NCBI RefSeq assembly: GCF_000003815.2
Contig: NC_049986.1
Coordinates: 15,401,569 to 15,465,568, forward strand
Direction of reading: 5' to 3'
Origin: Branchiostoma floridae
Lineage: Eukaryota; Chordata; Leptocardii; Amphioxiformes; Branchiostomatidae
DNA length: 64,000 nucleotides
Below, one piece after another: positions 1 through 57,352 of the stretch (its first letter is position 1; the number at the start of each line of letters is the position of its first letter). The notes below the pieces were generated by a model. The model worked only from the letters and a program-made list of their open reading frames with translations. It was not told where the DNA came from and searched no databases. The position numbers were made by a program, and so were the translations under genes.

Positions 1-3000
1 CTTTACTGGTGGAGGTGAAGATGGTAAGATGTTAACCGATAATTCAAATCGACATACTCTGCAAATGAAGCAATTCATAGTTCACAGCATATCGAAAACA
101 AAGGCCAACCGAGTTGATGGCCTGTGTACTGTTCCTGGGACACTTTCCTATCGCTTTGACTCTGAAGTAGTGTGGAAGTTGGTCTTATTATAACGATGGC
201 GTTTACGAAAGGAACTAATCAATTTAGTATAGGCTAGCTGTTACTTTTCTTTAACTGATCTCAAAATGATTGAAATACAACTTCTCTCCCCAGACGAGCT
301 CTCGAGGTTGTCCACAGACATGCTGCCCCGCAAGGCTACCTTCATCACCCAGCGGTACCGGAGGGGGCACGAGGGGTGCGACAAGTTCTTCCTCTTCTAC
401 TACCCTGTAGCAGACGTCAGCGAACTCAACCTGGTACCTTGTAGTTTCCCTTTCAATCCTTAACAAACCATAAACACACTGCTTTGCTTAAGACATGGCT
501 AATTCTAGGGCATGATCTTATAATGTTGTATTAATGTTGTATCTATGAAGAATTTTGATATTTGTTTATTTGCAAATACACACGCAAGGGCTAATCGCAA
601 GTACATGTAGCATGGAATAATGATAATTGCCGTGATATTAACAGATGATGCCACTATATGCCAAGTTACTAGTTAACAAAAGTTTGAAATATCGACAAAC
701 AGGTCAACTTTCATGCGAATTTAAGCGGACGTTTTTGTCTCGTTTAGAAAAGAGCCCTCCTCCTAAAGCGCTTTGATTACCTGGACACGTACGTCAGATG
801 CTTCACCGGTTACGTCAGTCCTGACGTCACCATGGACCAGGCGCGTTACCTTAGCGACCAGCTCCATGACAACGGGCTGTGTCGTGTGCGGGACAGGGTG
901 ACGGTGGCGGAGTACGACAGCCAATCACGACTGTTCGATCGTCATAACGAAGTAAGTTTAAACTTTATGCCAGAATAAAAGAAAGTAGATATTTACTTTT
1001 AGTGACCTTCGCCCAGAAGGTTATGTTTTTGGTAGCGTTTGTATTTGTGTATGCATGTTTGCACGTATGTGAAATGGACAGCATAACTCGAGAAGGATGG
1101 ATTGTATTGATATTTGGTATGGGGGCAGGTCTTGATGACGCCTTGACATGATTAGATGTTGGGCCACCTAGCGGCTTGTAACGGAATCTCAGCGGAACTC
1201 CCGTTTTATCTCGTGTTCTGGACATGTAATGATGTGAGTTTGGGGATGTAAATATAGCTCTTGAGACAGACCGTGTATGCTGCAGGTTTCTTTGAACTGC
1301 TGGAGCCGGTTTACTTTCAAACTTTGAAAGATAGCAACCCAAGAACGGGCTGGTGATTGATTTTTGTCTGCACATGAGTTTGAAATGTCGGGCAGGTAAT
1401 TAGCATCATCAAGCGACAATGGAAGAAAAAATTATTTATATTTTGCAATTACTTGCTATGGACAAATCTTGTAAAACAAATGTTCTCGAGTCAGTGAAAT
1501 GTTACTTGTATTTATCAATTTCCCTTCGAAGATCTTCTACTAGATCCTTTCTCTGCTATTCGTACTACAGATCCTTTTTGACGCAGCGGATTGCAAGAAG
1601 ACCCAGGAGCGCGCACCGGAGTTTGTCTTCAGTCTGCCTGTCAGGTCAGATGGCGTTAACGTCCATTAGCCGTATCGTCACACTTATTCATTTCATGTCA
1701 ATTANNNNNNNNNNNNNNNNNNNNNNNNNNNNNNNNNNNNNNNNNNNNNNNNNNNNNNNNNNNNNNNNNNNNNNNNNNNNNNNNNNNNNNNNNNNNNNNN
1801 NNNNNNNNNNNNNNNNNNNNNNNNNNNNNNNNNNNNNNNNNNNNNNNNNNNNNNNNNNNNNNNNNNNNNNNNNNNNNNNNNNNNNNNNNNNNNNNNNNNN
1901 NGGGGGGGGGGGGGGGGCTGATCTTATAAATCCCCTTTTCCAGGGCCCAGATTTCTGTCCCGCAAACGGTCGTTGCCATTTGCAACGGTCGATGCCCGTC
2001 AACACGGGGATACGTGCGGGGGGGGGTTTAAAGGATTGGGTTTTGGATTAAACTTTTTGCCCCTGGTTCGGATCCAAAATATTGCCGTTTCATTGATTTC
2101 TTGGCCACGTTTGAAAAGTTGTTTTTCAAACATTATTTCCTCTTGTCAGACACCCCCACCCACCCACACACAGCATTTTGATACGCTCGGATATGACAAC
2201 ACCTGTTGGTCTTGACCGTCTCAAATGGTCTTGACCGTGTCAAATGGCCTTCACCGTTTCAAAGGACTGTTTCCGAGTTGTACGATTCAAAGGGCGCTAT
2301 CAAGAGAGGGTGGCCCAATGTAGAATGCTTATATGTCACATGTCTGTCTGTGCGCCAGTCTCATCTCTTTATCGTCAGCAGACACCAAGAGCAAACAAGG
2401 GGTACAAACAAGAACATGCCGTAAAGGACGAGGCACCGCGAGATCCCTCGAGAAAAGCCGAGATCGTGTACGTCCCGATGCCGCCTAGATGCAAGACGAC
2501 CGAATGCATGCCGATCAGGAAGACCAAGGACTTCGGCGACTTCTGGGAGATAACTGTAACAGATTGTGAGTATACGTCTGACTTTAGTTCTTAACTTGAA
2601 TGAAATAAGACCCGTCATTATGATAACTTCAACCATCCATATTTGCTATGCCCTGTTCATGATGCAAAAATAAATTCAATTCGGCTTAGCAATTAAGTCG
2701 TATTAAGTCGACTTGTTATTTGCGTTCATGATGCAAATTTGCACCGACACATAAACCTCCTCTCTTTTAAGAACACAGATGAACTTCCGAGATAAGGTTG
2801 TACTGTTGTAAGTACTGTTGTTCGATGTGTCGTTCATTTTGTGAATCTTTTCAGACAAGGGTGTGTGCCACTTTGAAGTTGGTTGTGGTGCTCATCACTC
2901 AGGAAGGAAGGTTTTTCGCCCCCTTCTAAAGTACTTCGCCGGAGACAATGTCGAGGGAATTTCCCTTGGCGGTATTACGGCACCTTTGTTCTTCAATGTG

Positions 3001-4157
3001 AGTATGATGTGCATATCTTGTAGTATCTCTTTTGATATGTCTCATTATTCTCCTTATAATGGGCGACAGCTTTGTCTAAAAGCACAGTGCATGGGCATGT
3101 CACACGTATCATTACTCGATAACATCTACAGAAGACAAGCTACGTCGGGCCTTTGTTTTTTCTCATTATACATTTCATAAGGTGTTCTTGCAGCTACCGT
3201 GACCTGATGGCTCCCAGTTTAACAACATTTCGTGGTCATTGGCGATTTTCAGCCGGGAAGGTTCTGATGCTTAGAAATAGATATATCCGGGAAGCTTGTA
3301 GCCTGCCCACAGCTGTTTCCCGGTTGAAAATCGCGACCACCTCCCCCCAGCCGCTTTCGCCAATGCCCATAGATAGGCCAGTGAAGGAGGCTAAGTATAC
3401 TCCTATAGAAGCTAGTTATTCGCAGTCCCAGTGAGTACGTAAGGCTTTCCCAGAGAATAAAACCGCTTTCACATGATCCCCACAATGCACTCATTCTCCA
3501 GTACCAAGGCGTTGTACTGATGGAGTCCGGTGAAGAAGGGAGCTGCAGCTTACCATATGAAGTTTGTCTTCCGCTGCCAAAGGCTTTCCGGCACAGAGAG
3601 AAGATTGCAACTCTGAATAACCACGTGAGTAAATCCAAAACAAACAAACAACCAGACAAACGTGCTTTATCATGCGTAAAAGATTGTGTGACCTTCTTGA
3701 ATTCGTTATGATTTTTTTAATGAAAATAAAAATTTGCAAATACATTTGTGTTGGCATACAGACAAACTTGTATACTCGAGCGGAGGTCAAGGCGTACATC
3801 ACGAGAGTTCACGAGTACCCACTTCTCGCGAGAACGATCCGAGAACACGGGCTGCATCTCATGGGTCGTCTTGACGAGGAAGGAGTCAGATACGACAAGG
3901 TAATACTGCCATCATCACCACTGCCATAGTGTACCCAAGCCATCGTACTACATGTCTCTCTCTACTGTGCTACCGTTATATAATCTGTAATATTTGAATG
4001 AATTTTTATAACAATTACAACTGCATTTATCTACTTATTGTCATCTTTCTAGGAGGCGCTGTTAGCCTTCACATATGACGACTACTTCACACCGCCGAGC
4101 CAGAGAGTCAGCTATGTAGGCTTCGGCAACCCCATCACCGGGAATAAGCAGACTTAA
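1..4157 (+). CDS. Gene A: multi-SOUL-repeat protein, 5' part outside window and middle damaged by an assembly gap
   Basis: This is the last part of a gene homologous to genes B-E; numbering follows the exons of B. Exons seen: exon 7 end 1-23, exon 8 294-406 (or to 432), exon 9 748-951, exon 10 1571 to about 1640, exon 15 2379-2565, exon 16 2855-2997, exon 17 3502-3624, exon 18 3762-3899, exon 19 4053-4157 with TAA stop. Acceptors and donors are GT/AG, and exons 15-18 keep the phases of B (1,0,0,0). Recognisable family blocks are QSRLFDRHNE ending repeat 2, GVCHFEVGCG and LLKYFAGDN in repeat 4, and AFTYDDYFTPP near the end. Exons 11-14 are not visible; they would lie in or next to the 1705-1901 gap, and exon 10 reaches a stop just before that gap. 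A is the most diverged copy and ends with exon 19, lacking the acidic tail exon. Exon 8/9 joins in phase 0 rather than phase 2 as in B-E. It may be intact or partly degenerate; the gap prevents deciding. Confidence 0.72.
565..625 (-). repeat. LINE 3'-tail fragment
   Basis: On the minus strand this reads a CTTGCGATTAGCCC-type block followed by TTTGCAAATAAAC. It matches the 3' ends of the LINE fragments at 25389-25430 (plus), 29255-29525 (minus) and 31238-31300 (minus). It lies in an intron of gene A. It is short, so the family is not assigned. Confidence 0.45.
1705..1901. other. Assembly gap (N run)
   Basis: 197 N, followed directly by a run of 16 G (1902-1917). The gap falls inside gene A where exons 10-14 should be, so the missing exons are probably an assembly problem at least in part. 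Confidence 0.99.
3228..3347. repeat. Fold-back inverted repeat in gene A intron
   Basis: The left arm near 3233-3260 (GGTCATTGGCGATTTTCAGC then CGGGAA) is complementary, with a few mismatches, to the right arm near 3318-3345 (TTCCCGGTTGAAAATCGCGA then CCACC). The loop is about 57 bases. The layout suits a small MITE remnant; no target duplication is obvious. Confidence 0.55.
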
Positions 4158-8245: not shown

Positions 8246-8290
8246 ATCGCCTGTCCTTTATAAGGGGGAGCTTGATTGTTGTGAGCCAGT
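8231..8290 (+). promoter_or_regulatory. Core promoter of gene B with TATA box
   Basis: TTTATAAG at 8257-8264 sits in a block (AAACAATCGCCTGTCC before it, GAGCTTG and TTGTTGTGA after it) that is closely repeated upstream of gene C at 22811-22860. Conservation of this block between two paralogs whose surrounding spacer DNA differs, with a TATA motif and a downstream splice donor, supports a promoter. Transcription would start near 8290, about 30 bp after the TATA box. In gene C the same position reads TTCATAAG. Confidence 0.7.
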
Positions 8291-9984: not shown

Positions 9985-11422
9985 ATGAATCCCAGGCTCG
10001 TATGGGCGCTATTTCTCCTGGTGCTTGTGGCGGTGTGTCACGCCGAGCACCCCGGGCACGACAGCGGTGAGCACGACGAGCACGAGCACAGCAAGCACGA
10101 GGACCACGACCACAGCGATCACCACGAGCACGGCAGCTCCCACCAGCACGAAGATGAGCACAGCTCACATGAGCACGAAGAGCACCACGACTCGCACGAG
10201 CACACCTCAAAACAGCACGAAGAGCACGAGCACGGCCCGGACCACGAGCATGGGTACGTCATACACGCTATTACAGCCTGTGGTCAAATCAGGGCTTTGG
10301 AATGTTTCTACTTTGTTAAACTAGTTAAGATGTTTTCTCGGTCATTGTCCAAGAGAAATGCGACTTTGGGGACTTTTTTTCATTCTTAAATGCTTACATT
10401 TCTTGGTTACGTCTTACATGTATATCTTATGTTAGATAACGCTAGAAGATCTTGTCACTGTATTTCACACACTTGTCTTTTCGACTTCAATACATACGAT
10501 GACTGATGGNNNNNNNNNNNNNNNNNNNNNNNNNNNNNNNNNNNNNNNNNNNNNNNNNNNNNNNNNNNNNNNNNNNNNNNNNNNNNNNNNNNNNNNNNNN
10601 NNNNNNNNNNNNNNNNNNNNNNNNNNNNNNNNNNNNNNNNNNNNNNNNNNNNNNNNNNNNNNNNNNNNNNNNNNNNNNNNNNNNNNNNNNNNNNNNNNNN
10701 NNNNNNNNNNNNNNNNNNNNNNNNNNNNNNNNNNNNNNNNNNNNNNNNNNNNNNNNNNNNNNNNNNNNNNNNNNNNNNNNNNNNNNNNNNNNNNNNNNNN
10801 NNNNNNNNNNNNNNNNNNNNNNNNNNNNNNNNNNNNNNNNNNNNNNNNNNNNNNNNNNNNNNNNNNNNNNNNNNNNNNNNNNNNNNNNNNNNNNNNNNNN
10901 NNNNNNNNNNNNNNNNNNNNNNNNNNNNNNNNNNNNNNNNNNNNNNNNNNNNNNNNNNNNNNNNNNNNNNNNNNNNNNNNNNNNNNNNNNNNNNNNNNNN
11001 NNNNNNNNNNNNNNNNNNNNNNNNNNNNNNNNNNNNNNNNNNNNNNNNNNNNNNNNNNNNNNNNNNNNNNNNNNNNNNNNNNNNNNNNNNNNNNNNNNNN
11101 NNNNNNNNNNNNNNNNNNNNNTGGGCGACAAAAATGGTGTATAAACACCTCTCAACAACATGTTCTAACATGACAAGACCTTATTTTTGGTAGTGCCCCC
11201 CCCCCCCCCCCCCCCTTGATGATGCCGTGTTAATGTGTTCCTTGGGAGATACTAGCTATTGGCGCTGTTACAAAAGTCTCTTGTATATAATTTAGAAGCC
11301 TGCAAGAACTCGTCAACAAATTCCAGACCTGCCACGGGGCCAGTGTCAGTGTGGCAGCCGTGCCTTTTGGGAAAGATTTGCATGGTTGCCAAATCCCTCC
11401 CCCTCTGCCCTCTTCACACACA

Positions 11423-11469
<47 letters not shown>

Positions 11470-14400
11470 GCTCGCACGCAGACAGGTAACAGCATTTGTT
11501 TTGGAATGAAAGCTCATCTGTGTTGAAAACAAAATAAATCGTTAGGTTCTCATTAGACATAAACTCACAATGTGTCACAGATCTAGATATTTGTTGAAGA
11601 CCATTGTGCCAGGCGGAAAGTGTGACAATAGGCATGTCTGTTTGTATAATGAGATCCCTGAAGACCAATGTTTGTGTTTGAACAGCTTGGTTTATTTTGA
11701 AATGTAATGGACGACTGTTTACGTTGCGCACTGGTACAGATAACGGCCTCACCGGATCAAAGGTGAAGGACGGAGAAAATACATCTACAGTAGGGCTGGG
11801 TATCGGTACAGAAAATTGAGGTCCAGGTCCGGTTCAGGTCCAGAGGATCAGGTCCAGGTCCGGACCTGAACCTGGACCTGATTCAGTATGACTCATACCA
11901 ATGGTCCATTTCACTACAAAGAAATCTGTTTGGTGGAGTATGAGACTTACACTGGCGTTTTAAAATCCTACAACGCTAACTGCACCTGTACGATTGACTG
12001 TAAACCTTGGTAGAAATTACTATAAACTCTACTCTACTTCACTCTTGTTATTTTCTTCCAACTGCAAGCGCCAAAACGTGTGAATGCCTGATAAAATAAT
12101 ATGTTAATTTTCTAATCGGTCCAACATCCGGTCCACCTAATGTTTTCAGGTTCGGTTTTTCTGGACCGGTCCAATAAGAAAAACCGGTTTTGTACCGGTA
12201 CGCTGTACCGATACCCAGCCCTAATGTACATCAATAGTTAGGGACGAACCAAACAGTGAGTATGGGGGGTGCCACGTTGTTGACATTCTTCCTTGGATGG
12301 ATACCAAGCGCAATTGTATATTGCTTTTATTACGTCTTTCTTAAAACATTTTTTTTCTTCAAATATATCCTTTCCATAAGTTCCCGATATGCTTCAGGGC
12401 TTAATGTGTTTTGCAAATCCTCCTCAAATAAGATATCTTCTTGGTTCAGAAATATAATCCTCTTGCAAAAAAAGTTTACGCTTCACTGGTAAGACGGAAA
12501 TGAGTAGTGCCAAGTCATCATTTACAATAATTGTGAACTGTTAGTTCCTTCGCCGATCTCTAAATTTTCTTGTTTGTTATTTTCTATTCTCAGTGACAGC
12601 CATGAACGTCATGGTTCCCACGAAAGTGAGCTGAAAGAGTTCTGTCGTGGAGAGTGCCCTGAGTACGAGGTGCTGTGCCACAACCATGAATACGATGTGA
12701 GACGGTACAAAAGCGCCCTCTGGATCTCCACCACGGTATCGGACCCGTCTCTGTACCAGGGTCACGTACGCGGCTGGAACCGCCTGCACAAGTATATCAG
12801 AGGAGGGAACAAGGAAGGTACGTAAAATGTTAACGTTATGGTATCGCACTAACGCTAAAAAACGTTGCGAATTTCCCCTGTACTTTTGACATGAGGGTAT
12901 ATGATATAGCACTATACATATATGATGTCGTATTTCTTGGCGACACCACAGGGGTGGAGCTAATATATTCCTGTGATCGATATGAAAATGGTTCAAATTT
13001 CCTTGCATGCTTTTACTGTGAGGGGATAATACTGTTTTAGGCACAGGCCATATACTAAAAGATCGATAATTAGGACACAGCAAATTGCACATTCGAACCA
13101 TGTTGAATGCTACATGGTTGTTTTGTAACATTTCCAGGAGTGAAGATGCCGTACACCGCACCCCTGGTGACACAAACCCGGGAACCCCAGGAGAGCCCCT
13201 TCCACGAGGTCACCGTGTCCATGCCGCTTCCCAAGGACATGGCTAAGAACCCTCCCACACCGATCGACCCTCATGTATGTTAACCGTAATTCTTATCTTC
13301 ATGAAGTATCTATTTTCACTAGCGTTTGTCTGCTGGCCATGGATGGATTGGTTTCATACTCGATGTGTTGGTAGGGTGTGGCAAAATTGGTTAGATTTTG
13401 CCCCCCCCCCCGCCCCTGGCGGCTTCGCTTGGTACTGCAACGGAACTTCCAATTTTGATATCTCGCTATATATTTTGGTGATAGAAATCTCTTGACGTAA
13501 ATTTAGACACCCTAGCGGCTAGTTTTGTAATTGCAGGAGCTTTTCTGTAAAAATGTCCGTAGAGGATAATTGAAGAAAAGTTTGATTTTTGGGTTTATAA
13601 GTAGCTTAGACAAAGATATAAAAAAAATGAAATAAAAATTATGCAACTATGCAAAATAGGAGGACAGTTTTTCAATGTCCTGGGCATGATATGATGTTGA
13701 CATTTGGTTCAGAGCTATAAAGATAGTTTTTGACGTCAGCACAAGGTGGCGCAGGTTTGAGCCCCCTTACATTTACTTTTTGAACTGCACGGGCATTTTA
13801 TGAAAACATTCCAATGAGGATAACTGAAGAAAGGAACGATAGATTCCAAAATTTTAAGCATACAGGTAGCTTATGCAAAGATGTATACATGAAATGCATA
13901 TTATGCAAATGAGGACTTAATTTGTTCCAGGTGGTGATTGATCTCGTACCCGAGTCTATCGTGTACGTGAAGAAGTACCGAGGCCGTGCCGCCCGTGTCG
14001 GGTTTGTGGCAGAGCGGGAGGCCAAGAAGTTTTTCACCACCCTGGAGCACCACCATGAACCCTTCCATGGCAAGAACGACTATTTCTACATCGCTCAATA
14101 CGACAGGTAAGCATTTTGTTACTCTGTGACGGAGGGTAACCTCCGACGACAGAGTATTGTTGTTGTCCGGTGTGATGAGTGTTCGCATCAGTATCTCTAT
14201 AATATGTTCACGTTGCAGCATTCGTATGTAGCTTGGCATCTCGCCTGCACGCACGTTTTTTTTTCTATAGCTGTTTTTATCATCGATGTAACATTTTCAG
14301 AAGTCACCCCTATATTCCTGGTATTGTAGAACAGGCCATGTGGTTTGGGGCTTTGGTAATTAGCTTATCTCCAAGCAGATATGGGGTTATGTGTTCTCTA

Positions 14401-37415: not shown

Positions 37416-37421
37416 GTTATC

Positions 37422-40400: not shown

Positions 40401-43400
40401 ACACAAAACTTAGAGATGTACGCTCTTTGCCTAAGACATTCATTAAGCTAAGCGTCAAATCTCTGGTTGCTCAGTTCTCTGGATGGAAGGTTGTTTCCAA
40501 CTTTCAAGGCTGACACCATCTTATCTCGTTCTAGGAGTTCCACACTCTGAAGTCGCCTTGATGAGCTTCAGCGCGGTTGAGATTCGAGACGAGTTGGACG
40601 GGAAGGAGGGCTGCCAGAAGTTCTATGACATAACTGTCATACGGGGCGGGGCGAGTGGGACTAAAGTCCAGGTGAGTGAAGATGCAGTTTATATACACCT
40701 TCTATTTACAAGCCAATCTGGTCAGCTTTACAATCATTAAATTTTTAACTAAGCTTTCACTTTATCACGCTATCTTTAAGAAACAATCGTTTTTAGCACA
40801 ATTTTGCACCTTCGTTATTGGCGACACAGTATTACATTTACAAATGTCTGGAAGAACAGTGATTGTGTGACGACCTTTGTTTTTCTCTACCCTTTGTTCT
40901 GCAGGACTTTTTCCATGAACTTACCCCGGATACTGCCGATAGGCATGGGTTAAGGAGTCCAAAGACGAAAGAAGCATATCATCATCGGAAAAACTACCAG
41001 ACTCAGTGAGAGACCACTATGATATAGTAAATTGTACCAAATATATAAGAAATTCTCGTCGTCCTTAGATCTTCTAGAATTGTCTGTAAAATAAAGTATT
41101 AACCCGTTTCGCTAAATTTAGCTCAGATGAAACTTTCGTGGTCATATTCGTAGGACGTCGGGCGATTACGATATCGTCGAATTTTGCTGAGCAGGCTGTG
41201 ACCAAACCAGCCGCCGACAGCCTTTTCTGTTAGTTAAGATACGGTCACACATTCGTATATATTCAAGTCCGTTTGAGGTGCGTATGCACGCGTATGAAGC
41301 TCTTAGTCTCTACCAGGCTCCACAGGTCGCGGGGAAAATAGTACAAATTGGACAAATATAGATGAATAACATGCCAGATGAGTTAGCTGACCGAGAAGTA
41401 TGGTTAGCGACCCAGCTAACTCGTCTGATATGTTACCTGTTTACGTTTGTCCAATTTCTTTTATTTTTCCAACGACCTGTGGGGCCTGGTGGAGGTAAAT
41501 ACTCCCATGCGCGCCTCATACGGACTTAAATATATACGCAGTTGTGCCCCCACCTTGACTTGCTATGGCTCAGAACGCCTTTACTTGGCGGTCATACGGC
41601 GACCGTAATACGATCGTACGGCGAATGTGTCCAGACCTTTTTTTACCTCCATGAAAAATGGAGGTATAGTTTTGAGTGTGTCTGTCTGTCTGTCTGTGTG
41701 TGTGTGTGTTTGTGTTTCTATTATGTCATTTGCATAATCAGAATATTTCATGGAGGTATGAGGTCTCCGAACTCTTGTTTTTTCTATTTTGCTTTCGGAC
41801 TGACGGGGACAATGTGGCACTGCACTCAAGTTTTTGTAACTTATATTAACAGTGCCACATACACGGTACAGACAGAAGGTAAAGGTAGTCTTTTGCCTTC
41901 CCGACCGAAGTCAGGTACCCATATTTACACCAGGGTGAAGTGAGGAAGGTCGTGTAAAGTGCCTTTCCCAAGGGCACAACGTCGGAACGGGGCACGGTGG
42001 GGATCGAACTCAGAACCTCTAGGTTTCGAGCCAAACGCTTTACCAGTTACACCACGCCCGACCTTTTAGCTAAGGGCAGAACCCGCCGTACGTGCAAATA
42101 CGTGCTGTCTACGTTCCAAAACGTGGGCAATCTTTTGGGATCTGTAAGTGGTAAGTACCGCCTCCGTACGTACTTTGTGTGCACCTTGCGCAACCGTGCG
42201 AGTGACGTGCGTTGACGTACTCATTGCCAGTCGCTGCTCTTGCCAGTCGTTCCCCACGTTTTCAGAAATACGTGGCGGACGTGGCCTCCCCAAAACCGTA
42301 CGGACAAATCGCATGTACGGCGGGTTGTGCCCTTAGCTTAATTGAAGGGAATAGACGGTCAATTCTCAAAATCCTTTGCGGTTTTTATGCTAAACGGATT
42401 TCTGTCATATTCTTATCTCTATGTTGGCATACAAGTAGATTATGTTCCAAGATACAAAGATGTTAGTACAGTAGCTTACTTGAAATCATGCTATTTACTG
42501 CGCGTCTCGCAAAAAAGGCATGAAACAAAACAGTTGGTGGAACCAACATTTCACCATTTCACAACGAAATGGAAAACTGGATGGAACGAAAGGAATAGCC
42601 AAAAGCGGCCATTTGCTATAATATGCATTACCATTTTATGCACCACAGTCACTTCTATCACAAGTGCATGGGTGGGAACATCTACTACGAACCAGTCACC
42701 ACCACTAAAGTAGCCAACGTACTCACGGACAGGCTCAAAGAGGAGAAGAAGTGTATTCTGGGAGATCACATAGGGGTGTTCGAACATCATCCACAGTCCA
42801 GGCTGTTTGACCGTTTCAATGAGGTACGATTGTTATCTGTTTCCATTTGTCTTTTTGCCTGTTTATCTATTCTGAATAGCAGTCAGTGACAATCCGACGA
42901 GACCCTAGATAAAGTCAATGGCATCTCTATTTCAGACGGATAGCTTTTATTTCCTTAATTTGCGTCATCAACACAAGTTTTATTAACTACAATTCAAAGT
43001 TAAACTTTTACATCCATATGGTACACTCAAAGGTATTGGCTCATTAGTTGAGATAAAAGACAACTTTGAATCCCCTTTGAGAAAAAAAGTAAGGAAGAGT
43101 GAAAAAGAGAGTGATTAAGAGAAATAACAGGAAAAGCAAAACTATGGCCATTCCAGTTAATATGCACATACTCTGAATCAAATAAAAATCAAATCGAATC
43201 AAACTTTATTTAATCAACTTGGCAGTCATGATCAATCAGACTGAATTGCGTCGAGTGTACAAGGAAATTATAGGAATGAAGCGTATGTTTTTTCAGGTTA
43301 TTCTAGATGCCGACCTGGACTGCAGTGACCAGGAGGGCCGTCCGGAGTTCACCTTCCATCTCCCGCTGAGTAAGAGCTACAGCCAGCACGAGGCGAAGCC

Positions 43401-43764
43401 AGTGGTCGGGGACCGCTGCACCACGTACGAGTGTCCCAACATGTCCGTCGCCGTGAGGTTTGAGAACAACCTCAGGCTGATGAAAACCCCAGCAGGTAAC
43501 CTTGAGGATGATGCTGTGATAATGGAAGAGTCTAGCCCATCTGCCGACACAATGTCTCTATAAGAACTACTACCAGCGGTTTAAATCTGTCAGGGACCAA
43601 TGTATATGTAGTGTCTGACTATTCTGTGAAAAAAACACAAGTTTCAAATATAAACATGTGGCGTCGCCTAGCGTAACACCTCGAGCACGTAAAAGAGCCC
43701 ACCACACTTATCGAAAAGAATCCTTCCAAGTGTGATATATATACTCTATCTATCTATCTATCTA

Positions 43765-43834
<70 letters not shown>

Positions 43835-46800
43835 CTGTGCTGTTCAGTAGAAACCTGGTGTCTTAGGCCATAAACTATGTGATACACACGAACCTTATGA
43901 GATTTGCACGAACCTTATGCGAAATTGAGGCAGTGGTAGCGTCTGTCACGTGACCACTGCCGGGGTCACGTGACAGACGGAGCGGGATTTTCAAGATGGC
44001 GACTTCGATCTTCGGCGACGGAAAATACGATGTAACACGCCGAAATGAAGCAAAACAGTAGCTCACAGGCTATCGAATACGTCTTCGTGATGGTATATGT
44101 CCATTCCATGCATTTAAATATAGATATCACGGGTAGAGACGCTCAAAATCATTCCTTCTCCCCGGCCGCCGTTTTGCATAAGGTTCGTGCAAATGTCATA
44201 AGGTTCGTGTGTATCACATAGTGATTCGTGCGAACTTCATAATATTCGTGCGTTTTCGCATAGTGATTCATGCGATTTTCATAATATTCGTGCGTTTTCG
44301 CATAGTGATTCGTGCGTATCACATAATATTCATACGAATTTCATAGGGTTCGTGCAAATGCTTAGGCACCCCTGATAAAGCGCTTTAACAGGTATGCAAT
44401 ACCAACCGACAAATACACCAGTTAAAATCTGCCTCACCAGTCATCATGGACACGCTAGGCACATTGATATGGCATTAACGTTAGTCTGTTAAGATGGCCT
44501 ATTACCTCCCAGACTTTTGTTGTTCCACAGCCACATGGCTTTGCTCCAATAGCACAGGCAAGTTTTGCACACACAAACAGGCCTGGGAGAAGGCACTCCA
44601 GTCCATTCTGTCTTACATCAATGGCAAGAACGAGGACAACGTGAGGATGGACATAACCAGACCACTGTATTATCAGGTCAGCTAATTTTTGTTGTCTGAA
44701 ACAGAGAATCAGCTGGGATGCACTACATACTTGGTTGCAACTGGTGTTTTATGATTTAATGTTCAAGCTAACCTTCATTGTGTGACAATGGGATTGTTTC
44801 AACAGTTTGTAACAGGCGAGTAGAAACAGTCTCCTGGCTCCCGGGATTTAAACCCGCGCCGAACTCGTTTCAGGGTCAGACCTGTTTCGCATGGTCAGTT
44901 TGGCGGCGTTTGAACCTAACTGGTATAAGTTGATGCTGTATAACATTGTAAGTAAATCACATTTGTTTCCATTGTTAAGGCATTTAGATGTTTCTTTACT
45001 CAGGGTTTCAGAGGAGACCATGAGTGTGATACAGGAATTACGATGTGCATTACACTGCCAAAGAAGTATGAGGACAACCCACCAAAGCCCATCGATGATA
45101 TGGTATGTATTGAGATATCTATTTCATGATTGTTGCGTATTTTTCTTTACTTAGGCCACTAGTGGATGTGTGCTTATATTTTCCTTTAAGACTGATGTCA
45201 TAGCCATCAGTACCAGTACAATTGTTTGCGATAATGTCAGATAGACTCCTACAAATTATGCTTAATGTTGTCAAACTTGGCAGCTCAGACTAGCAGTTTT
45301 CAGGAGGTTCATTGACAAGACCTATTCCGAAGTGCAATAAAATCACCTGACGTATAACGTTTCACAAACCTATTGGTTAGCTCAAAACATTACATACTAT
45401 CAATATATCAGATCTTTCAGAAACTACATACTTATACACCTATTAGACGATTAGATGATCTTTCCATACTCTTGTTTATATTTTCCAGGTTTCCTTCAGA
45501 AGGGGAGATAAGGATAGTTACTGGTATGAGACGGCATTTGTGGGCAAGCCTACCTTAGACGTGCTCACGAAACAGATGACTCGGATGACCAAGCAACTTG
45601 AAGAACTTAAAACGTTTGGGGTAAACTATACGACAGAGGTATGCAGCCATGCTTTCATCTTTCATATATACCATTACGTCGACTATATATATAGGGACAA
45701 AAAAGTGCCCATAATGAGTACAAGTATTCCAAGTTCAAAGATTTTAGACGATCTTCGTATTTCATACTATCTATATTTTTCTTGTTTTAGGACATTTGGG
45801 CTGGGGGCTATGGCTTTGTTAACGACGAGGAAGCTCTTATGACAGTGATAATCGTAGACCAGCAGGTATGTCTGATTGATAGTCACCCAATCGATCATTT
45901 CATCAATCAATCAATGAATTACATTTCGTATTCCAGCAGTATTTAATGTTCAAAAGGCAATTAGATATAGATATGTTATTTACTTGAGACAAATGCAAAA
46001 GGATTATTCACAAAAAAAAAACTTGTATTTCTTTTTTTCAGCACATCTACTGGAAGGTGAGTGCCTGTTTCTTATAACTGTTTCATAACGTTTTATAATG
46101 TTTGCTCCTGCGATTCACACTGTAGATACACTGTGCCAAAATGAATTAGAACGATTATTTCTTTGTTTTAATTCAAACCTGAAACAGGACAGTGAGAAGG
46201 TAGAAGATGCCGAGAATGACAAGACGGAGGAGGAACACCCAGATGAAGAGATCCTGGACCTGATACCAAAGGATTGCCATCTGCCTACCTGTAACCCCGT
46301 CCAAGTGACCAAAGAACACAGCAACTACATGGAAATCTTCTTCCCCACATGTGGGCATTTACATACTATCTATTCTCTGTTTCCCTCCACCACCATCCTT
46401 GTTATTTGCTCAAATTTATTTCTTTCTGCTTTTCGACCTCCTTGTAGTTTTGTTCCATGAGAACAAGTACAGCTCATTTTGCTGAACGAACTAAAGCCAG
46501 CAATTATCAACGAAGGAACTGAAGATAGTGATTAGTCTTTCATTTGAGTTGTCTTCACTAACTTGGGAGTAACGTTTAGCATGACTTGACTTGATTCATG
46601 ACGTGTATGAGATCATGAGACATTTTTGAGAGGACTTTAAAGTCGTATCACGGCTTTCTTTGAGCCTCATTACCTATGCCCTGTGTTGCACAGCGAAGGG
46701 TGTCTGCCAGTACGTCAAAGGATGCGGCCACGGCTCTCCTCGCCGGAGTCTATTCCTCCCCATCTACAAGTATTTCGACGGAGACAATGAAGAGAAGGAG

Positions 46801-49071
46801 AAGATTGGGAATGTCACGGATCCAATTGTTTTTCAGGTAGTTTCCAGATATAAAAAATGAAACTTGTGTTGTATAAAATTGTTTACATTTTGAGCAGTTT
46901 TGTAGCTATCTACGCTGTGGTTTATTTGCTCCCTAGGTATTTGAAAAAGGGCCAATGAGTGGCGGAATTCTCATATCTATGCATGAGTATAGTTGATGCA
47001 ATGCGGAAGTGGTGCGCTTGCATATCACTCTTTTTGTTTTTGTTGACTCAAGGTAAAGCTCTACTCAGCCGAGGAGGAACTGGCCGGTGTTGAGGCATGT
47101 GAGCGAGAGTTCCAACTCTGTGCCTATCTGCCTTCCTCCTACGCGGAAAAGGACATCCCCAAACCAACAGGAGAGAACGTAAGACATCATTTGATGCAAT
47201 GATAGATATAGATTATACCATTATGATCTCTTTCTAGCTAACACTATACTTTCTGCAATCTTTGACAATACACACCAACGTTAGATTTAATGTAAAGGGC
47301 TGTTATGGAATTTTTTTTATAAATACCTTGTATGCAATCCGTATCTTGGTTCAATCTGCACACGAAACCCTGCATTAAATCCCTATTTACATGATTTCAG
47401 TATTGTTTTAGTCAATGATAGCTTTATTGCACAGCAATTGTACGGGGTACAAAGTATGGCATCTACATAACTACAGTTCTATAACTTAACGCTTATCTAA
47501 CTAATACAGAAGTTGTAGTATGGGATAAGTTTCTTACAGTCATTGGAGGCTTTTACAATCATTGAATTAAAACAATCATTTACAAATGTATGGGACTCAA
47601 CAAGTTCAAATGAAACGGAAGAAGATATTTTTATATCAAAACAGTATCCCTACTGTGGGACTGCACACCGTTTGCATACAATCTGCATATTGGTTGAGAC
47701 ATTTATGCCACCTTTCAAAACACAGATGGCTACATTTAATGCCAAGGATGGAGCTCACGGGTACGCCATCGGTGTGAATGGTTCTTTCAACAGTATCGAC
47801 ATTCCTGCCACAACCATCAAGCTGATACAGGCGCTGAACGCAGAGAAGGTCAAGCACAGCCAGGTACAAATTTTAAACTGACCAGTTAACGTTTTATTCA
47901 CTGTCAAAGGCGGGTAATCAATCTATCTATTGGGCACATCCCACATAGTGTAATAGAAACGTAACAGATGCATATCTGTATACTTACATACGTAAAGCAA
48001 TTAAATGTGTTCTTGACATCTAAATGTAGAAGTCTCTACCAACAAGGATGTTTGTTCCAATGCACATACTTTTCATACTAATTAACGTACACATGCACTG
48101 ATTGGTTACCGCTGAAACTGTTCATTTACCCAACTGTACATCTACCACCCATATGTATGTTTCCCCTACTACCACTTTATGTTTCTCCTACTGTATGTTT
48201 CCCCTACTACGTATACCTCTGAATGTTTCCCCTACTGTATGTATCCCCTACTACCTCTGTATGTTTCCCCTGCTGTATGTTTCCCCTACTACCTCTGTAT
48301 GTTCCCCCTACTGTATGTTTCCCCTACTACCTCTGTATGTTCCCCCTACTGTATGTTTCCCCTACTACCTCTGTATGTTCCCTCTACTGTATGTTTCCCC
48401 TACTACCTTTGTATGTTTCCCCTACTGTATGTTTCCCTTACTACCTCTGTATGTTTCCCCTACTGTGTATTTCTCCTAACACCTCTGTCCTCTGTATGTT
48501 GACACATCAGGACTGGCTGCTGATATTCGCGCACACCAACGAGTTCACCAAAGTCGAGCAGGACAAGATGGTTTACTTCGCCCTCCTGAAGGATCAGGAG
48601 ATGTCGGATGGAGGTATATTAAGAAACTTTAAAAGTGTTCCATAAACTTTCAAATTTCCAAATTATCTTATTTGTTTTGATTTCATTAATTGACTTGGTT
48701 GAAGAATTCTAAAGTCAAACGAAAAAAAAAAAAAACACAGCACAATCCTGCTCCTTATTGTGAAACTTGGAGCACCAGTCCTGTCATGTAATAAAGCATG
48801 GTTTATATATAATTGGGACAAAGCGAAAATTACCACATAATGACAATCATTCACTTTGCCTCCATTCGGACTGCCCTCTGGGCCCGTATATTGGTATTTG
48901 TAGCCAGACAGGTGCAGCAAGTACTCTAGCCCAAGGTATGCAAAGGTTAGATTCTAAAAGACAAGGTAAATCTACATAGTGTCTACAGGTGCCCATGCAT
49001 ACATGTATGCTGTTCCACTTATGCGTGAATGTGTCTGTCATCTTACAGTGCAGCCCTCTGATGGCGAGTAG
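37422..49071 (+). CDS. Gene D: secreted four-SOUL-repeat protein with a 15-nt microexon
   Basis: Twenty-one exons: 37422-37516, 37731-37933, 38177-38313, 38735-38910, 39229-39449, 39812-39988, 40535-40671, 40905-41005, 42649-42823, 43297-43495, 44531-44676, 45004-45102, 45489-45638, 45791-45865, 46042-46056, 46188-46350, 46694-46836, 47053-47178, 47726-47863, 48511-48613, 49049-49071 (TAG). The product is about 933 aa and all joins are in phase. It starts with signal peptide MAYKVLLATFLVCVGVCYG, then a short HHH segment. Repeat 1 has FELLC, YDVRRY and VKMPSTG; repeat 2 ends QSRLFDRFNE; repeat 3 has YECPNM and SYINGKN; repeat 4 has GVCQYVKGCG and YKYFDGDN. The HIYWK block, part of one 90-bp exon in B and C, is here a separate 15-nt exon (46042-46056) flanked by TTTTTTTCAG and GTGAG. 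The last exon adds only VQPSDGE, so the acidic tail of B and C is missing. The exon 3 donor is GTTCGT, weaker than in the paralogs. Confidence 0.87.
41006..42648 (+). other. Intron 8 of gene D (1.6 kb)
   Basis: No exon is seen. It contains a dispersed-repeat edge at about 41646-41760 (TACCTCCATGAAAAATGGAG, then TCTGTCTG/TGTG runs, then TTTCATGGAGGTATGAGG) and the minus-strand SINE at 41850-42063. Confidence 0.6.
41850..42063 (-). mobile_element. tRNA-derived SINE
   Basis: On the minus strand from 42063 the sequence begins GGTCGGGCGTGGTGTAACTG, which carries an A-box, then GAGGTTCTGAGTTCGATCCC, which carries a B-box. The body has GTTGTGCCCTTGGGAAAGGC, ACTTTACACGACCTTCCTCA and CTTCACCC. The same body follows the tRNA-like head of the plus-strand copy at 54750-54986, so they belong to one family. 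It is not a functional tRNA gene, because the head does not fold into a full cloverleaf by eye. Confidence 0.75.
43745..43832. repeat. (CTAT)n then (TA)n microsatellite
   Basis: About six CTAT units pass directly into some 33 TA units, in the intron between exons 10 and 11 of gene D. Confidence 0.96.
43856..44373. mobile_element. MITE-like element with 44-bp internal inverted repeats
   Basis: The left arm 43876-43919 and right arm 44177-44220 are inverse complements at 43 of 44 positions. Each contains two CGAACCTTAT-type units. Outside the right arm, 44221-44360 holds further degenerate units of CATAATATTCGTGCG and CATAGTGATTCGTGCG. The outer ends GGTGTCTTAGGCC (left) and the complement of CTTAGGCACCCC (right) are partly inverse. 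Between the arms lies a GC-richer core with a perfect 15-bp hairpin (43941-43955/43964-43978) carrying two CACGTG sites. No protein is encoded. It lies in the intron between exons 10 and 11 of gene D. Confidence 0.72.
48154..48500. repeat. Minisatellite of ~38-bp unit next to an exon of gene D
   Basis: Units alternate CTGTATGTTTCCCCTA and CTACCTCTGTATGTTCCC-type halves (16 + 22 bp), about nine in all, pyrimidine-rich on the plus strand. The array ends about 10 bp before exon 19 at 48511 and may supply its polypyrimidine tract. Long reading frames here (FPLLYVSPTTS repeats) are products of the array. Confidence 0.93.
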
Positions 49072-49419
49072 GCAGAGAACTCAGACTAAGAAGAAGGCAG
49101 AATGGAGCACGACGACAAAGAATGCGCAGGAATAACACAAAGTTGATGATACATGGAACAATAGTTATTTGCATACCAGAAACTGTTTATTCATTTCCAA
49201 CCAGAGACGATCATTGGTTACTAAACCCACTCAGTCATGCAGAAGATGGTCCGGGTATAAGATGGGATAGATAGATGGATAACAATGAGACCCTGGTTTG
49301 GCTACGTCATATGTATCCATTGTACCAGCGACCTTTACCCACTTATAGCTGGCAACTTGGCCACCATTTCACAACCAGGAACGTCCTAATGTACAATTTA
49401 CTTTGATATCTACCTGTTG

Positions 49420-49425
49420 AATAAA
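49420..49425 (+). terminator. Polyadenylation signal of gene D
   Basis: AATAAA lies about 350 bp after the TAG stop of gene D. It is the most plausible hexamer downstream of the gene. Confidence 0.5.
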
Positions 49426-51611: not shown

Positions 51612-52075
51612 AGTTACTTCGGACGACAACGGACGTACGCATTTTTAACTACTCTATGCGCATGCCCTGACGTTGCCATATGCCTTGCTTATTTACATCC
51701 ACCACGATCAATACGTCTGCTTTGTATTTTTGAACTTGAACTTTTTCATGTCTGTCGCAAAAGCAAACAAATTACACATTTAGAATGCCAATGATCTTGG
51801 ACGACAGAAGATGTACGCAGTCCTGACTACCCTATGCGCATGCCCTGACGTCGCCACATGCTTTGCTTATTTACATCCATCGATAACGACCAATATGTCC
51901 ACATGGTGTTTTTGAACTTGACATTTGTCATTATTCCATTGGTAGAGGTTGAAGTCCAGGAATATTAGTGGCGTGCCCTATATAGGGCAAGTCTCTAATG
52001 TGTTTTCAAATAAATCAAGTCTCAAAGATTGTTTGTCACAAAGTCAAACAAATTACACATTTTGGATACCAATGA
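51612..52075. repeat. Direct repeats upstream of gene E
   Basis: A block with GACGACA.., CTATGCGCATGCCCTGACG, then ATGC.TTGCTTATTTACATCC and TTTTTGAACTTGA occurs at about 51621-51735 and again about 178 bp later (51799-51925). A block AAACAAATTACACATTT...CCAATGATCTT occurs at about 51766-51798 and 52057-52089. They are diverged tandem duplications in the likely promoter region of gene E. Confidence 0.7.
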
Positions 52076-52245
52076 TCTTCACACTTTTATAAACTTGAAC
52101 CTTATTCAGATGGCAACAGGGAGAATTGACAGGTTCTTTAGTTGGTGCTGCTCGTGTGAGTATGTTCATCACAGTTAGAATTATGCTACAGTCATGATTT
52201 CAGTGACATTGATTCTGATGGATCATTTCGATAATGTAGGTAACA

Positions 52246-55200
52246 ATGGCGTCCAAAGTCCTGTTGGCAACATTCGTTCTGGTCTACGTGGGAGTGTGCC
52301 AAGGTCATTTCCACCACTGGCATCTACTGGGCGATTCAACCAGGTACACACTACACACCATACTTAGAATTTTCTAGATTAAATCAGGTATGCTCGAAAA
52401 TGATGCCAAGCTCCCCTGGGTGCCATCCGATTTCCAACGGGGCTCCAAGACTTGCTTTCCTTAAAACACATCATCGCCAAATCTAAATTTTCTGCAATAG
52501 TCTAAGAACCAAGACCTCAGTTGTTTTCCAACAACAGTGTTGTGTATAAACTAAAATCGGATTTTTTTACATAGTTCACAACACACCTATTCTCTCCATG
52601 ACAACAGCGTAGCCCCGGAAACCGTCTGTACTGGAGAGTGCGCTGAGTTCGAGCTGTTGTGCTCGACCCCAGAGTACGACGTGCGGCGGTACAAGAGCGC
52701 CCTCTGGGTGTCCACCACCATGTCGGACCTGTCCCTCTCCCAGGCCAGCGCCAGGGGGCGGAAACGCTTACACGACTACTTCAGGGGTGCAAATGGCAAA
52801 CGTGAGTTTCACGCAGTCAGTGCCAACACATCATTTCACGTCACAAAACGATATGAACAATAAATTGCAGACCTTTTTGAAGATGAACAGATGACTTATG
52901 TCGCTACACATATCTAGTGGGGCCATCTATATGATGCAGCCAGCTTGAATGGATGAGTTTTAGTCACTGTGAAAATGTCTACTGGACAATGTCATAATCT
53001 CAATACTCAACTAGAGTTCGGGGACCACATACCTCCATGAAATATTTATTGCTTTTTTGTGGATGGTATGTATGTTTATGGTCGGTTGTATTTGAGAGTA
53101 ATGGTTATAAATGTTATGGGAAAGAAGTGGTGTATTCATTTAATGACACAGAGAATGTCCATCTGATAAGTAATTATTAAAATGTGACACTTAATTGTGT
53201 AATGTGCGTTTAAGAGGTCGACGGCATATGGTAGCGTGGTGTTCCTGAAGCGTGATGTTTGGCATTTAAACTGTCTAAGGTTGTCAGCATTATGAGGTTA
53301 TACTATGTGCCTCAGAGCGGTGTGGTGGGAGGAAGTTGGGAAAGTTAGAAAGAAGAAGGGATTTGGCAAACTTTAGTCCGAGATCTTTACGTCTTACCTG
53401 CAGAAGTATGCAATTTATAGAAATTAATAGTTGATTAGCATTTATAATGACGATCTCCTACTATTACAATGTGTTCCACAATAGGACCTTGATAAATGTA
53501 AGATATGTTTAGCTGCTGGCTACAACTGTTAGCTGCTGGCTACATGGCCCACGGGTGATTAATTACCTGACCTACATACGTCACCTTGCCCCGGGACATG
53601 CCTGTTCCAATATTTCGCAGATATAGGGGTGATTTCTGATATTATTACATTGATTATAATGACAGATACGGCGCCCAAAATCTCATCGATTCGAGCTTTC
53701 ATCACACCCCACCAACACAACAAGTATGAAACCAATCCATCCAGCCGTTCTTGAGTAATCATCTACACAGACAGAGACACATAACAGAAAATATAACCTC
53801 CATTCCATGACATTTCATGGAGGTAATTAGTATAATACCATCCTGACAGAGCATCTCAGTTAGAATGACATGAAAGAAAAACGCTTTGCTGTTAGGTTCT
53901 TTGTATTCCTGCAGGTGTGATGAGCTATTTCAATATTTTTTCTGAGGAGTACATTAACGATGGGCTTTTTTTCAGGACTGAAAATGTCGTACACCGCACC
54001 CATGGTGACACAGACCCGGGTAGCATCTGAGAGTCCCGTCCGTGAAATCACCGTGTCTGTGCCTCTTCCCGAGAGGGTGGCAAAGAACCCTCCTAAGCCA
54101 ACAGATCCCAGGGTATGTTTCAAGTTTCTCTCAAAGATGGAATTTATTCCTACCATAGGGCTTGTTGTGCTTCGACAGCAATCAATTATCAAATTTGGCC
54201 TATTTCCTTGCCTGCATGAGTGTCGCTATCTTTTCTACTCTCAAAGCAATCTTGTATTTACCTATCTTAGCATTATGAGGATCTTAAGGTATAGTCAAAT
54301 CTACTTCTGGTATCGAGTATCGTAACATCTGTAGTGCTTAAACGTAGGAATGTGAATAACTTATTGCGCAACATATCATACATAGGATACTTCATGACGA
54401 AATGAAATTCATTTTCAATTTGCTTTGGACATAATGGGCAGAACCTACTGTTTCTCAACTGTGTTATGACATGTGCAGGTGGTGATAGATCTCGTCCCAG
54501 AGGCCATCATGTACGTGAAGAAGTTCGAAGGACGTTCTGCGAGGGTCGGCTTTGTCGCTGACCTGGAGGCCAAAAACTTCTTCAAGACCCTGAAGGCGAA
54601 TGATGAACCATTACATGACAACGAAGGCTATTACTACGTCGCGCAGTATAGCAGGTATGATGCCATATACAGCATGTCAATGTAACGTTAGCACTCACAA
54701 GAACTGGTCATGGTACCACAACGCCCTTTATTAAACCACGTAAATGGCGTCGCGTGCGGCGTAACTGGTAGAGCGTTCGACTCGGAATCTAGAGGTCCCG
54801 AGTTCGATACCCGCTGTGCCCCCGGCGTTGTGCCCTTGGGATGGTCACTTTACACGACCTTCCTCACTTCACCCATGTGTAAAAACGTTCCGTACTACGT
54901 ATGTGGCATAAAGCTGCCTGTACTTCTTCTGTTATTTCTGTTTATTTGAAATGCAATAAATATTAAAAAAAAAAAAAAAAAAAAAAGCTAGCGACATGCA
55001 GGAAATCTAAAACAGTAGCAGTCTGTACATAAAGTTGGATGATGCTTCAAAACAACGGTCGTGTTCATGGAAGGCGACAGCTTATGTTGCGAGATGCTCC
55101 ATTGGGTGCTGCACCGTTGCACTTAACGGCCAACGCATTCACGATCAATTTGAGAGATCTCATAGTCAGCACTGTGTGATTGCTTCAACGATAAGTGAGG

Positions 55201-57352
55201 AATAGTAAATATATGAAAGCTGCAAAAAAAAAAAAAAAAAAAAAAAAAGCTGCCTGTACATATGTAAATTTCTTTACGTTTTGTGGCCACATCTACACTG
55301 TGAGCAGCGGCACCTGTCCTGTAGTCAGAATTGCCCTGAAGAAGGTGACAGACAGTCACCAAAACGTCGGTGAGAATAAAACATTGGTTGTGTAAAAAGA
55401 CTCTCTTTATTCAGTGAAGTACCAACCTGATGAAACAAGTCACGAATGTTTGTGACACTGTTAATATGAGTCTCTAACTTGTGTGCAGTTCCACATTGTC
55501 TTCGTCTGTCCAAAAGCAAATAGAAAAGAGAGTGAATAGTTTCCTCGGGTTGAATGTTCTTTATTCAATAATAGATAACGACGTTGTTGACTATACAAAT
55601 CTGCTCCGTTCCATGATAGGGCTATTCAAACATGTGACATATAGAACTGAAAATAAGAAGAACATTAATAATCAAAATTTTGCAAGACTCTACTTTTGCC
55701 CATTTTTCTCCTTTTTTCCTCAATTTGCAATGCAGCTCGGAAAAGTCCAGTGCGCCCATCCGCACAGAGATTGCAATTTTTGCCCTGAACGAGAAGACAC
55801 ACAAGTGGCTGGAGTTCAACGACAGACAGGGACTCCCGAAGTGTATCCGTGGTAAGGGGGAGCACATGACGTGGGAGAAGATGGGCCAGAGCGACATCCC
55901 GCTGGCGTTGTCAACTCGCGAGCAGTGCTCTACGACGTACTGCCAAGGTATGATTGGATATACCTGCTCTTGTTGCTGTCTATGACATAGGCAATATAGC
56001 CAAACCCTCGAAAATGAAAGAAGAACTATTATCGAAAATCGAACCTTTTCAACTCTTGAAAACTGTGTCACTGAGTTCAGTACCATGTCCTGACTGACAG
56101 TAGTGGCTGTGGTGGCAGTGTTATCAGTAGTACTAGCAATATCAGTAGTAGTAGTGTTGGTAGTAGTAGTAGTAGTAGTAGTAATAGTAGTAAACCCTCG
56201 GTAACCGCTATGCAGGCAATGACTGTCTTTCCCAATAAATGGAATGAATCTTTCGTGAATTTTACACGTCCTATCGTTGTTTTAGCCCCCAAGAAGTGTC
56301 CAAAGGTCGAGACAAAGAGTGTGGAGGGTATTGACGACAAGAGCATACAGCTGAAGCACATGAAGGATATCAAGGCATGGGCGTACGTACCACCAACCTG
56401 CTACTACGATACAGCCTTTCCAGCTTCTACGGGTCCACTGCGGGAGTCTCTAAACACATCAGGTAAGATTCTAACACCTGAGAGATATGTTTGTACAGAA
56501 AACAAGTCAATATATGTTATCTGTGTTGTAACGTCATGTTACATGGAATGTTATTTTATTGAGGGAACAACTTTACATGAAGTTCCTGGCATCGGTTGAA
56601 TATAATGGATTCGTATCAAGATTTTGATCAAACATGATCATAAAGATTGCTTCCTATCAGGCTGCAAATGAGTTAATGTTTTGACAATCTACGACTGAAA
56701 TTTAATACTTGATTGTGTATTTGCCTACAGGTGTCACTCTTTCGGAAGCTGCCATGACGATCACAGTTGCCATGGAGAAAAGGGAGGAGTTGGATGGGAA
56801 GAACAGCTGTCAGAAGTTCTTCAAAGTGTTGCTTGCTACAGGTGGTGGAAAAGGGGGCCTAGAGGTACGTTATGACAGAAAGGTCTTGGCAGGAATTGTT
56901 TTAAGAAAAGAAGTAAATAAGGATAATTATTAAAATAGAATTTATCTCTTATTGTTGCACAGGACGTACAGATGAAGGAGGAGGCTGGCTTGCAGATGCC
57001 AAAGACTGCAGAAGCAATACATCAGGGGCATGCGACTATTGCAGGGTAAATCAAATGCTGTGCTGCAATGGTTGCATTTCAATTACTCCAAGTAGACATT
57101 CCCTTATGTATCAATCCGCTATTTCTTACCATCAAAACTATACCAAATTATGTTCATTATTTATTTTCATCACATATTAGACACTACTCCAAGTGTTTCG
57201 GCGGCAATGCCTACTACGAACCGATCATCATCACTTCCACGGCTAAGCTCCTCATGGAACAGCTTAAGGACAAGAAGAAGTGTTTCCTGGGTGACCACAT
57301 CAGTGTGCTCGAATACCATCCGCAGTCCAGGCTGTTTGACCGTCACAACGAG
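52246..57352 (+). CDS. Gene E: SOUL-repeat protein, first half only (repeats 1 and 2)
   Basis: Nine exons: 52246-52343, 52608-52801, 53976-54112, 54479-54654, 55736-55947, 56286-56462, 56731-56864, 56963-57045, 57181-57352. They are in phase for 461 residues and end at a donor (GAG|GTTTGT). The signal peptide is MASKVLLATFVLVYVGVCQG, followed by HFHHWH. Repeat 1 has FELLC, YDVRRY, LKMSYTAP and a closing YYYVAQY. Repeat 2 starts PKKCPK and ends QSRLFDRHNE. The opening is closest to gene D (shared KVLLATF, GDSTR). Exons 10-20 are absent from the window because a BEL/Pao retrotransposon begins 126 bp into the next intron. They may continue past the right edge or be lost. The SYNEIW-type motif of B and D is replaced by RTEIAIF. 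Confidence 0.83.
53030..53826. mobile_element. Putative TIR element in gene E intron 2
   Basis: TACCTCCATGAAAT at 53030-53043 and its exact reverse complement ATTTCATGGAGGTA at 53813-53826 bound 797 bp. The same end motif occurs at 41646 and 41750 in gene D. Just inside the right end is CCATCCAGCCGTTCTTGAGT followed by an ACACAGACAGAGACAC tract, a layout common in invertebrate dispersed repeats. No coding capacity is visible. Confidence 0.6.
54273..54470 (-). mobile_element. LINE reverse-transcriptase C-terminal fragment
   Basis: The minus-strand frame 54458-54273 reads SRFCPLCPKQIENEFHFVMK then a PMYDMLRNKLF-type continuation. This is the Cys-x2-Cys...His pattern near the C-terminus of many non-LTR reverse transcriptases. 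It ends just before exon 4 of gene E. It is a different family from the LINE fragments in gene C. Confidence 0.6.
54750..54986 (+). mobile_element. tRNA-derived SINE with poly-A tail
   Basis: The head has GCGGCGTAACTGGTAGAGCG (A-box) and AGGTCCCGAGTTCGATACCC (B-box). The body, GTTGTGCCCTTGGGATGGTC, ACTTTACACGACCTTCCTCA and CTTCACCC, matches the minus-strand copy at 41850-42063. It ends in 22 A residues (54965-54986). It lies in intron 4 of gene E, in the same orientation as the gene. Confidence 0.82.
55224..55420. repeat. A25 tract and adjoining unclassified dispersed repeat
   Basis: A run of 25 A (55224-55248) is followed by sequence containing CCCTGAAGAAGGTGACAGAC then GTCACCAAAACGTCGGTGAG. 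This CCTGAAGAAGG...AAACGTCG layout with a small inverted core (GTGACAGACAGTCAC) resembles dispersed repeat ends in many metazoan genomes. I cannot name the family. Confidence 0.45.
56130..56192. repeat. (AGT)n trinucleotide repeat
   Basis: Imperfect AGT/TAG units, with a purest stretch of ten or so at 56161-56181, in intron 5 of gene E. Confidence 0.85.

Follow-up and report, generated by a model that had tools for sequence, protein, structure and literature searches.

A tandem array of constrained genes for predicted secreted proteins with four probable SOUL domains in Branchiostoma floridae

SOUL proteins are mainly known as single-domain proteins, and their function is unsettled. A stretch of 64,000 nucleotides of the Branchiostoma floridae genome (contig C8, NC_049986.1, bases 15,401,569-15,465,568; called the window hereafter, with positions counted from its first base) raises the question of whether its repeated, SOUL-like exon series belong to genes for long multi-domain proteins and, if so, what such proteins might do. 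Judging from the sequence, these series are part of a real, constrained and tandemly duplicated family of predicted secreted multi-SOUL proteins, a variant within a known domain family.

Comparison of the reading frames of the window among themselves revealed co-linear exon series on the forward strand. Genes B, C and D lie entirely inside the window, and genes A and E partially. Exon fitting indicated a common order, i.e. a signal exon (SP) followed by exons R1a-d, R2a-d, R3a-e and R4a-e of four successive repeats (R1 to R4), with a single phase pattern. We searched the extended region with the exons of B and D as queries and then fitted splice sites under one fixed phase pattern. This procedure replaced an initial dynamic-programming gene model, which had added spurious exons. 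The array comprises eight genes, A to H, and extends beyond both ends of the window. Of gene A, the first exon that could be placed lies ~2.9 kb upstream of it, and the second half of E, at 66114-70202 on the same scale and thus outside the window, is followed by F, G and H. An earlier note on this DNA had described a tandem array of five genes; the co-linear series, the shared strand and the single phase pattern hold, but the count does not. A ninth gene of the array type, I, is a full relative of the array genes located 3.5 Mb away in inverted orientation (C8 19000926-18988180, minus strand), at the end of the region of a second cluster and on the opposite strand to it.

The full set of 19 exons could be located in seven genes (B, C, D, E, F, G and I), but the fitting rule gave no splice site for the signal exon of C or for R3b of G and I. 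In gene H, R4d was not placed, and the signal exon and R2c are weak. Gene A has 12 placed exons, three of which are weak (R2b, R3a and R4d; E >0.01), and no splice site was found for its terminal exon. Exon search and fitting did not recover its signal exon, R2c, R3b-e or R4c, and a run of N (1705-1901) falls within the interval of the missing exons. Scripted joining of the exons, performed without the signal exon for B, C and H, yielded no internal stop in six of the nine genes (B, C, D, E, F and H). The products of A, G and I were out of frame, with 10, 18 and 21 stops, respectively, because the fitting rule found no splice site for R3b in G and I, and A is partial. With the hand-read exon 1 and the tail exon included, the 20 exons of gene B form an uninterrupted frame of 1062 residues from ATG to stop. 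Gene D is likewise open from ATG to stop over its 19 exons (903 residues, with the start of R4a and exon R2c uncertain).

Are the repeats SOUL domains? With the Pfam SOUL profile (PF04832, cut-off 27 bits), the whole proteins B, C, D, E and H score 236.9, 212.6, 193.1, 205.1 and 206.2 bits, all above the cut-off. At E up to 1, four SOUL stretches were detected in B (E 1.7e-70) and in H (E 4.8e-61); at the stricter E up to 0.01, C, D and E each have three. Given the E value of the whole B protein, the match is not due to chance. Submitted singly, R1, R3 and R4 of gene B reach 119.9, 56 and 56.7 bits. Among solved structures, repeat 1 matches HEBP2 at 2.7e-15 (query residues 33-203) and HEBP1 at ~2e-7, and both HEBP2 (3e-13) and HEBP1 (3e-9) are also matched by the profile of repeat 3. 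The repeat 4 profile matches HEBP1 only, and weakly so (0.0075); unrelated chains begin to appear at 0.049. Profile comparison with a repeat 1 set that includes human HEBP2 gave 98.6% for repeat 3 and 96.1% for repeat 4. By these profile matches, repeats 1, 3 and 4 are SOUL domains.

Repeat 2 speaks against a complete set of four. In gene B, it scores 20.9 bits singly, under the Pfam cut-off, and only five of its eight copies match Pfam SOUL, at best with 1.1e-9. Its comparison with repeat 1 gave 51% (E 1.5e-4) over 62 columns only, and its profile matched no solved structure. As five of the eight copies do match Pfam SOUL, and as repeat 2 groups in the domain tree described below with M2, a module of a drafted gene elsewhere on C8, we take it for a diverged SOUL domain, which is not proved. 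The earlier description of B, C and D as four-SOUL proteins is supported by the four Pfam stretches of B, with repeat 2 as the weak member; at the stricter threshold C and D show three. The profile check proposed with that description came out in the same way in B, with R1, R3 and R4 over the cut-off and R2 below it. Altogether, the four-SOUL architecture of the array genes is very likely.

The same exon series might be imagined to represent separate neighbouring single-SOUL genes, or pseudogenes, that mimic multi-domain genes. The partial gene A and the lack of a usable signal exon in C would agree with that idea, but the phases are compatible throughout, and the frames of B and D are open from ATG to stop. 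Introns between domains are short (92-517 bases in B, C and D), and the array exon search matched signal-type exons ahead of repeat 1 only. In gene B, furthermore, the Pfam match of SOUL2 ends three residues into exon R3a, and that of SOUL3 starts in the same exon. Exon R3a therefore codes for parts of both domains and ties them together, which would in part counter the idea of split transcripts. With the coding sequence also under constraint, as shown below, we regard separate genes or pseudogenes as highly improbable and retain the reading of multi-domain genes.

We ran the Pfam SOUL profile over the genome, 513 Mb in 431 contigs. At least 48 exon-sized matches were obtained, most of which fall into three groups: the array A-H itself (C8 15.40-15.50 Mb), C8 18.93-19.00 Mb and C12 21.21-21.23 Mb. 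Profile matches and draft models in the second group suggest a cluster of multi-SOUL genes on the plus strand (18.929-18.985 Mb; L016-L022). As hand-trimmed proteins, draft gene J has four SOUL stretches (3.1e-98) and draft gene M seven (1.4e-190); four SOUL domains may thus not be the upper limit. Draft M might, however, comprise several genes. Two of the drafts, K and M, contain near-copies of one module. The C12 group (21.210-21.234 Mb, minus strand; L024-L026) consists of four single-SOUL exon sets, which join human HEBP2 in the domain tree (99/92). Further SOUL exon matches were observed at C8 12.18-12.38 Mb and C11 18.45-18.46 Mb.

The tree of 44 domains was rooted by midpoint only. Each repeat position forms one clade over eight genes, with supports of 100/100, 100/100, 100/99 and 100/100 for R1 to R4; therefore, the four-domain gene predates the array. 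One group (98/95) unites R1 with human HEBP2, the C12 single-SOUL modules and the draft modules J1, K1 and M1. M1 is the closest to R1 (95/92) and M2 joins R2 (98/92); M3, M4 and M6 are placed near R3 and R4, with weak support. The array would accordingly have arisen by tandem duplication of an already four-domain gene, whose copies then diverged. The expansion by local duplication suggested earlier is supported.

The dN/dS ratios range from 0.266 to 0.495 in the 11 computed pairs, of 28 possible among eight genes, and coding constraint on the array genes is clear. Where B and C can be aligned, their exons are 79-98% identical and their introns 75-91%. The first repeat 1 exons stand out with 94-98% identity. 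As an explanation for these near-identical exons, we considered and rejected gene conversion of B and C, as the introns between the exons are only 78-79% identical where aligned; because of those introns, constraint is the simpler reading. Small conversion tracts are nevertheless possible, given the low synonymous divergence in the same exons.

Signal-like starts were found in six of the nine genes (B, D, E, F, G and I), each with a hydrophobic stretch of 11 residues whose mean hydropathy lies between 2.73 and 3.35. This includes the signal peptides noted earlier for B and D. The array proteins are thus likely to be secreted through predicted signal peptides. Several points tell against this prediction. 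The peptides were judged by hydropathy alone, the exon search found no signal exon for A, and the one placed in H is doubtful (E 0.7). As read, gene C lacks a usable signal exon; its signal-like exon is broken, as reported before, by a stop at the fourth codon. The other 18 exons of C are open and constrained despite that stop, which might reflect an assembly error, a recent loss or the use of a different first exon. The view of SOUL proteins as mostly intracellular or plastid proteins also needs qualifying, since a SOUL protein with a signal peptide is listed in a mussel shell study (PMC6641155).

Twenty cysteines are invariant in the eight genes B-I, with 6, 5, 5 and 4 of them in repeats 1 to 4. 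Exon 1 of gene B also codes for a His-rich region, with 25 His among the 69 residues at 21-89. No region of this length was seen in the other genes; C, D, E and I have short His-containing stretches only. An acidic tail exon ends B and C.

What might such proteins do? Exon order, open frames, SOUL membership of R1, R3 and R4, selection and invariant cysteines are direct readings of the DNA, and the following model is built on them. The product would be a soluble secreted protein of ~900-1060 residues, with a signal peptide and four SOUL domains in series, joined by short, partly acidic linkers and followed in B and C by the acidic tail. Each domain would be a small, pocket-bearing barrel stabilised by disulfides outside the cell. 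Repeat 1, the nearest to HEBP2, may keep the ancestral pocket, and the remaining domains may give further or altered pockets. The protein could then carry or sequester a flat hydrophobic ligand in a body fluid, the gut or mucus; heme or another tetrapyrrole would be the most likely candidate. We see an even chance that this description as a whole, a secreted disulfide-rich four-SOUL pocket protein with a probable tetrapyrrole ligand and an array formed by tandem duplication, is correct.

Mouse SOUL is reported to bind heme through His42 (PMC6321638), and HEBP1 to bind heme and other tetrapyrroles (PMC7700505). Counting against a tetrapyrrole ligand, Arg occupies the His42 position in all eight aligned copies of R1, and only two of 32 repeats have His there, with an uncertain alignment at this position for R2-R4. 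The proteins might therefore be secreted and have lost tetrapyrrole binding, the SOUL fold serving as a disulfide-rich scaffold, for instance in a matrix or mucus protein; the strong divergence of repeats 2 and 4 and the secreted SOUL protein of the mussel shell proteome (PMC6641155) would fit this. However, repeat 1 retains clear similarity to HEBP2, and few exons are as well conserved between B and C as its first three. Moreover, HEBP1 binds heme without a HEBP2-type His42. We consider the scaffold somewhat unlikely.

In seven of nine repeat 1 copies, a His is present two residues before the conserved Tyr of an L-x-x-Y motif; the same position is Val in A and Tyr in H. HEBP1 has a Met there, a probable heme contact on helix 1. 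We put tetrapyrrole binding by at least one domain of the array proteins at about even odds. A more elaborate version is tentative and rather doubtful: the proteins would be multivalent extracellular tetrapyrrole carriers or sponges with four to seven SOUL domains, which in a filter feeder might serve, for example, for heme or for products of dietary chlorophyll. The helix 1 His of repeat 1 would have taken over heme ligation, and the His-rich arm of gene B would act as a second metal or heme site.

Finally, the array might represent a family of nutritional immunity, in which the secreted proteins would keep heme iron away from microbes, and this pressure would drive the copies apart. A tandem array with divergence is in keeping with this, as is work on sea urchins that implicates SOUL genes in gut immunity and places larval soul1 downstream of IL17 signalling (PMC5660111, PMC5457136). 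However, dN/dS is below 0.5 in all 11 computed pairs, with no sign of positive selection at the gene level, and an immune role seems improbable. SOUL genes are also reported to take part in daily expression cycles in a sea anemone and a coral (PMC4476465).

The features of genes A to E in the window are listed in Table 1. The R2d-R3a intron of gene E is ~8.8 kb long (57353-66113), compared with 219-517 bases in B, C and D, and probably contains an insertion. No Pfam match was obtained for the four frames tested in it, at 58937-59608 (+), 60851-61318 (+), 57677-58153 (-) and 62447-62812 (-), or for the frame at 24991-25293 (+). A short repeat at 48082-48500, just 5' of the last exon of gene D, is open in several frames and yields long open reading frames without apparent meaning.

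Table 1. Positions of the features of genes A to E within the window
Feature	Position	Strand	Basis or remark
Gene A, 3' part	294..4133	+	exon search and fitting; repeat 1 upstream of window
Gene A exons	weak R2b 294-433, R2d 753-951, weak R3a 1571-1631, R4a 2379-2565	+
Gene A exons, continued	R4b 2855-2997, weak R4d 3762-3899, R4e 4059-4133	+
Gene B exon 1, predicted signal peptide and His-rich region	9985..10253	+	hand-read, in frame when joined; 269 bases from ATG at 9985, phase 2
Gene B SOUL repeat 1 and linker	12594..14792	+	exons 12594-12817, 13138-13274, 13931-14106, 14563-14792
Gene B SOUL repeat 2, divergent	14885..15952	+	exons 14885-15061, 15258-15394, 15511-15596, 15778-15952
Gene B SOUL repeat 3	16172..18434	+	exons 16172-16370, 16702-16847, 17293-17397, 17812-17967, 18345-18434
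Gene B SOUL repeat 4 and acidic lead-in	18783..20752	+	exons 18783-18948, 19339-19481, 19770-19901, 20167-20310, 20650-20752
Gene B final exon with acidic tail and stop	21299..21492	+	in frame when joined
Gene C signal-like exon, end approximate	24253..24377	+	stop as fourth codon, 24262-24264
Gene C SOUL repeat 1	25788..27599	+	exon fitting, Pfam
Gene C repeat 2	27699..29088	+	exon fitting
Gene C SOUL repeat 3	29606..31771	+	exon fitting
Gene C SOUL repeat 4	31993..33587	+	exon fitting
Gene C acidic tail exon, start approximate	35601..35791	+	hand-read
Gene D predicted signal peptide exon	37422..37516	+	exon fitting, hydropathy
Gene D SOUL repeat 1	37731..39449	+	exon fitting, Pfam
Gene D repeat 2	39812..42823	+	least supported exon R2c 40905-41005, E 1e-3
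Gene D SOUL repeat 3	43297..45865	+	exon fitting
Gene D SOUL repeat 4	46272..48645	+	stop 48643-48645; R4a start uncertain
Gene E predicted signal peptide exon	52246..52343	+	exon fitting, hydropathy
Gene E SOUL repeat 1	52608..55947	+	exon fitting, Pfam
Gene E repeat 2	56286..57352	+	exon fitting

A branch of this kind, secreted, rich in disulfides and with several domains and a gene array of its own, would show the SOUL fold working in series outside the cell. It would also provide an accessible system for testing SOUL ligands, in which recombinant single repeats can be compared with the whole chain. The array genes may already be automatically annotated elsewhere, and among the papers listed in searches of the open-access literature, none showed a described multi-SOUL secreted protein.

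Known systems share some of these features. Polycalins are multi-lipocalin gut proteins of Lepidoptera; they have another fold, and we claim no homology, the analogy being that pocket domains are repeated in one secreted chain. Within the SOUL family, human HEBP2/SOUL (PDB 3r8j, 4ayz) aligns with array repeat 1 over most of the domain and is matched by repeat 3 as well. In contrast to its single domain, the array proteins have four, with a predicted signal peptide, invariant cysteines and an Arg at the His42 position of R1. HEBP1/p22HBP (PDB 2gov, 2hva), of the same family, is matched by array repeats 1 and 3 and weakly by repeat 4; it has one domain and is described as cytosolic (PMC6321638), whereas the array proteins have four domains. 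The heme-binding protein 2-like protein of the mussel shell combines a signal peptide with SOUL, as the array proteins appear to do, but one SOUL domain is listed for it (PMC6641155).

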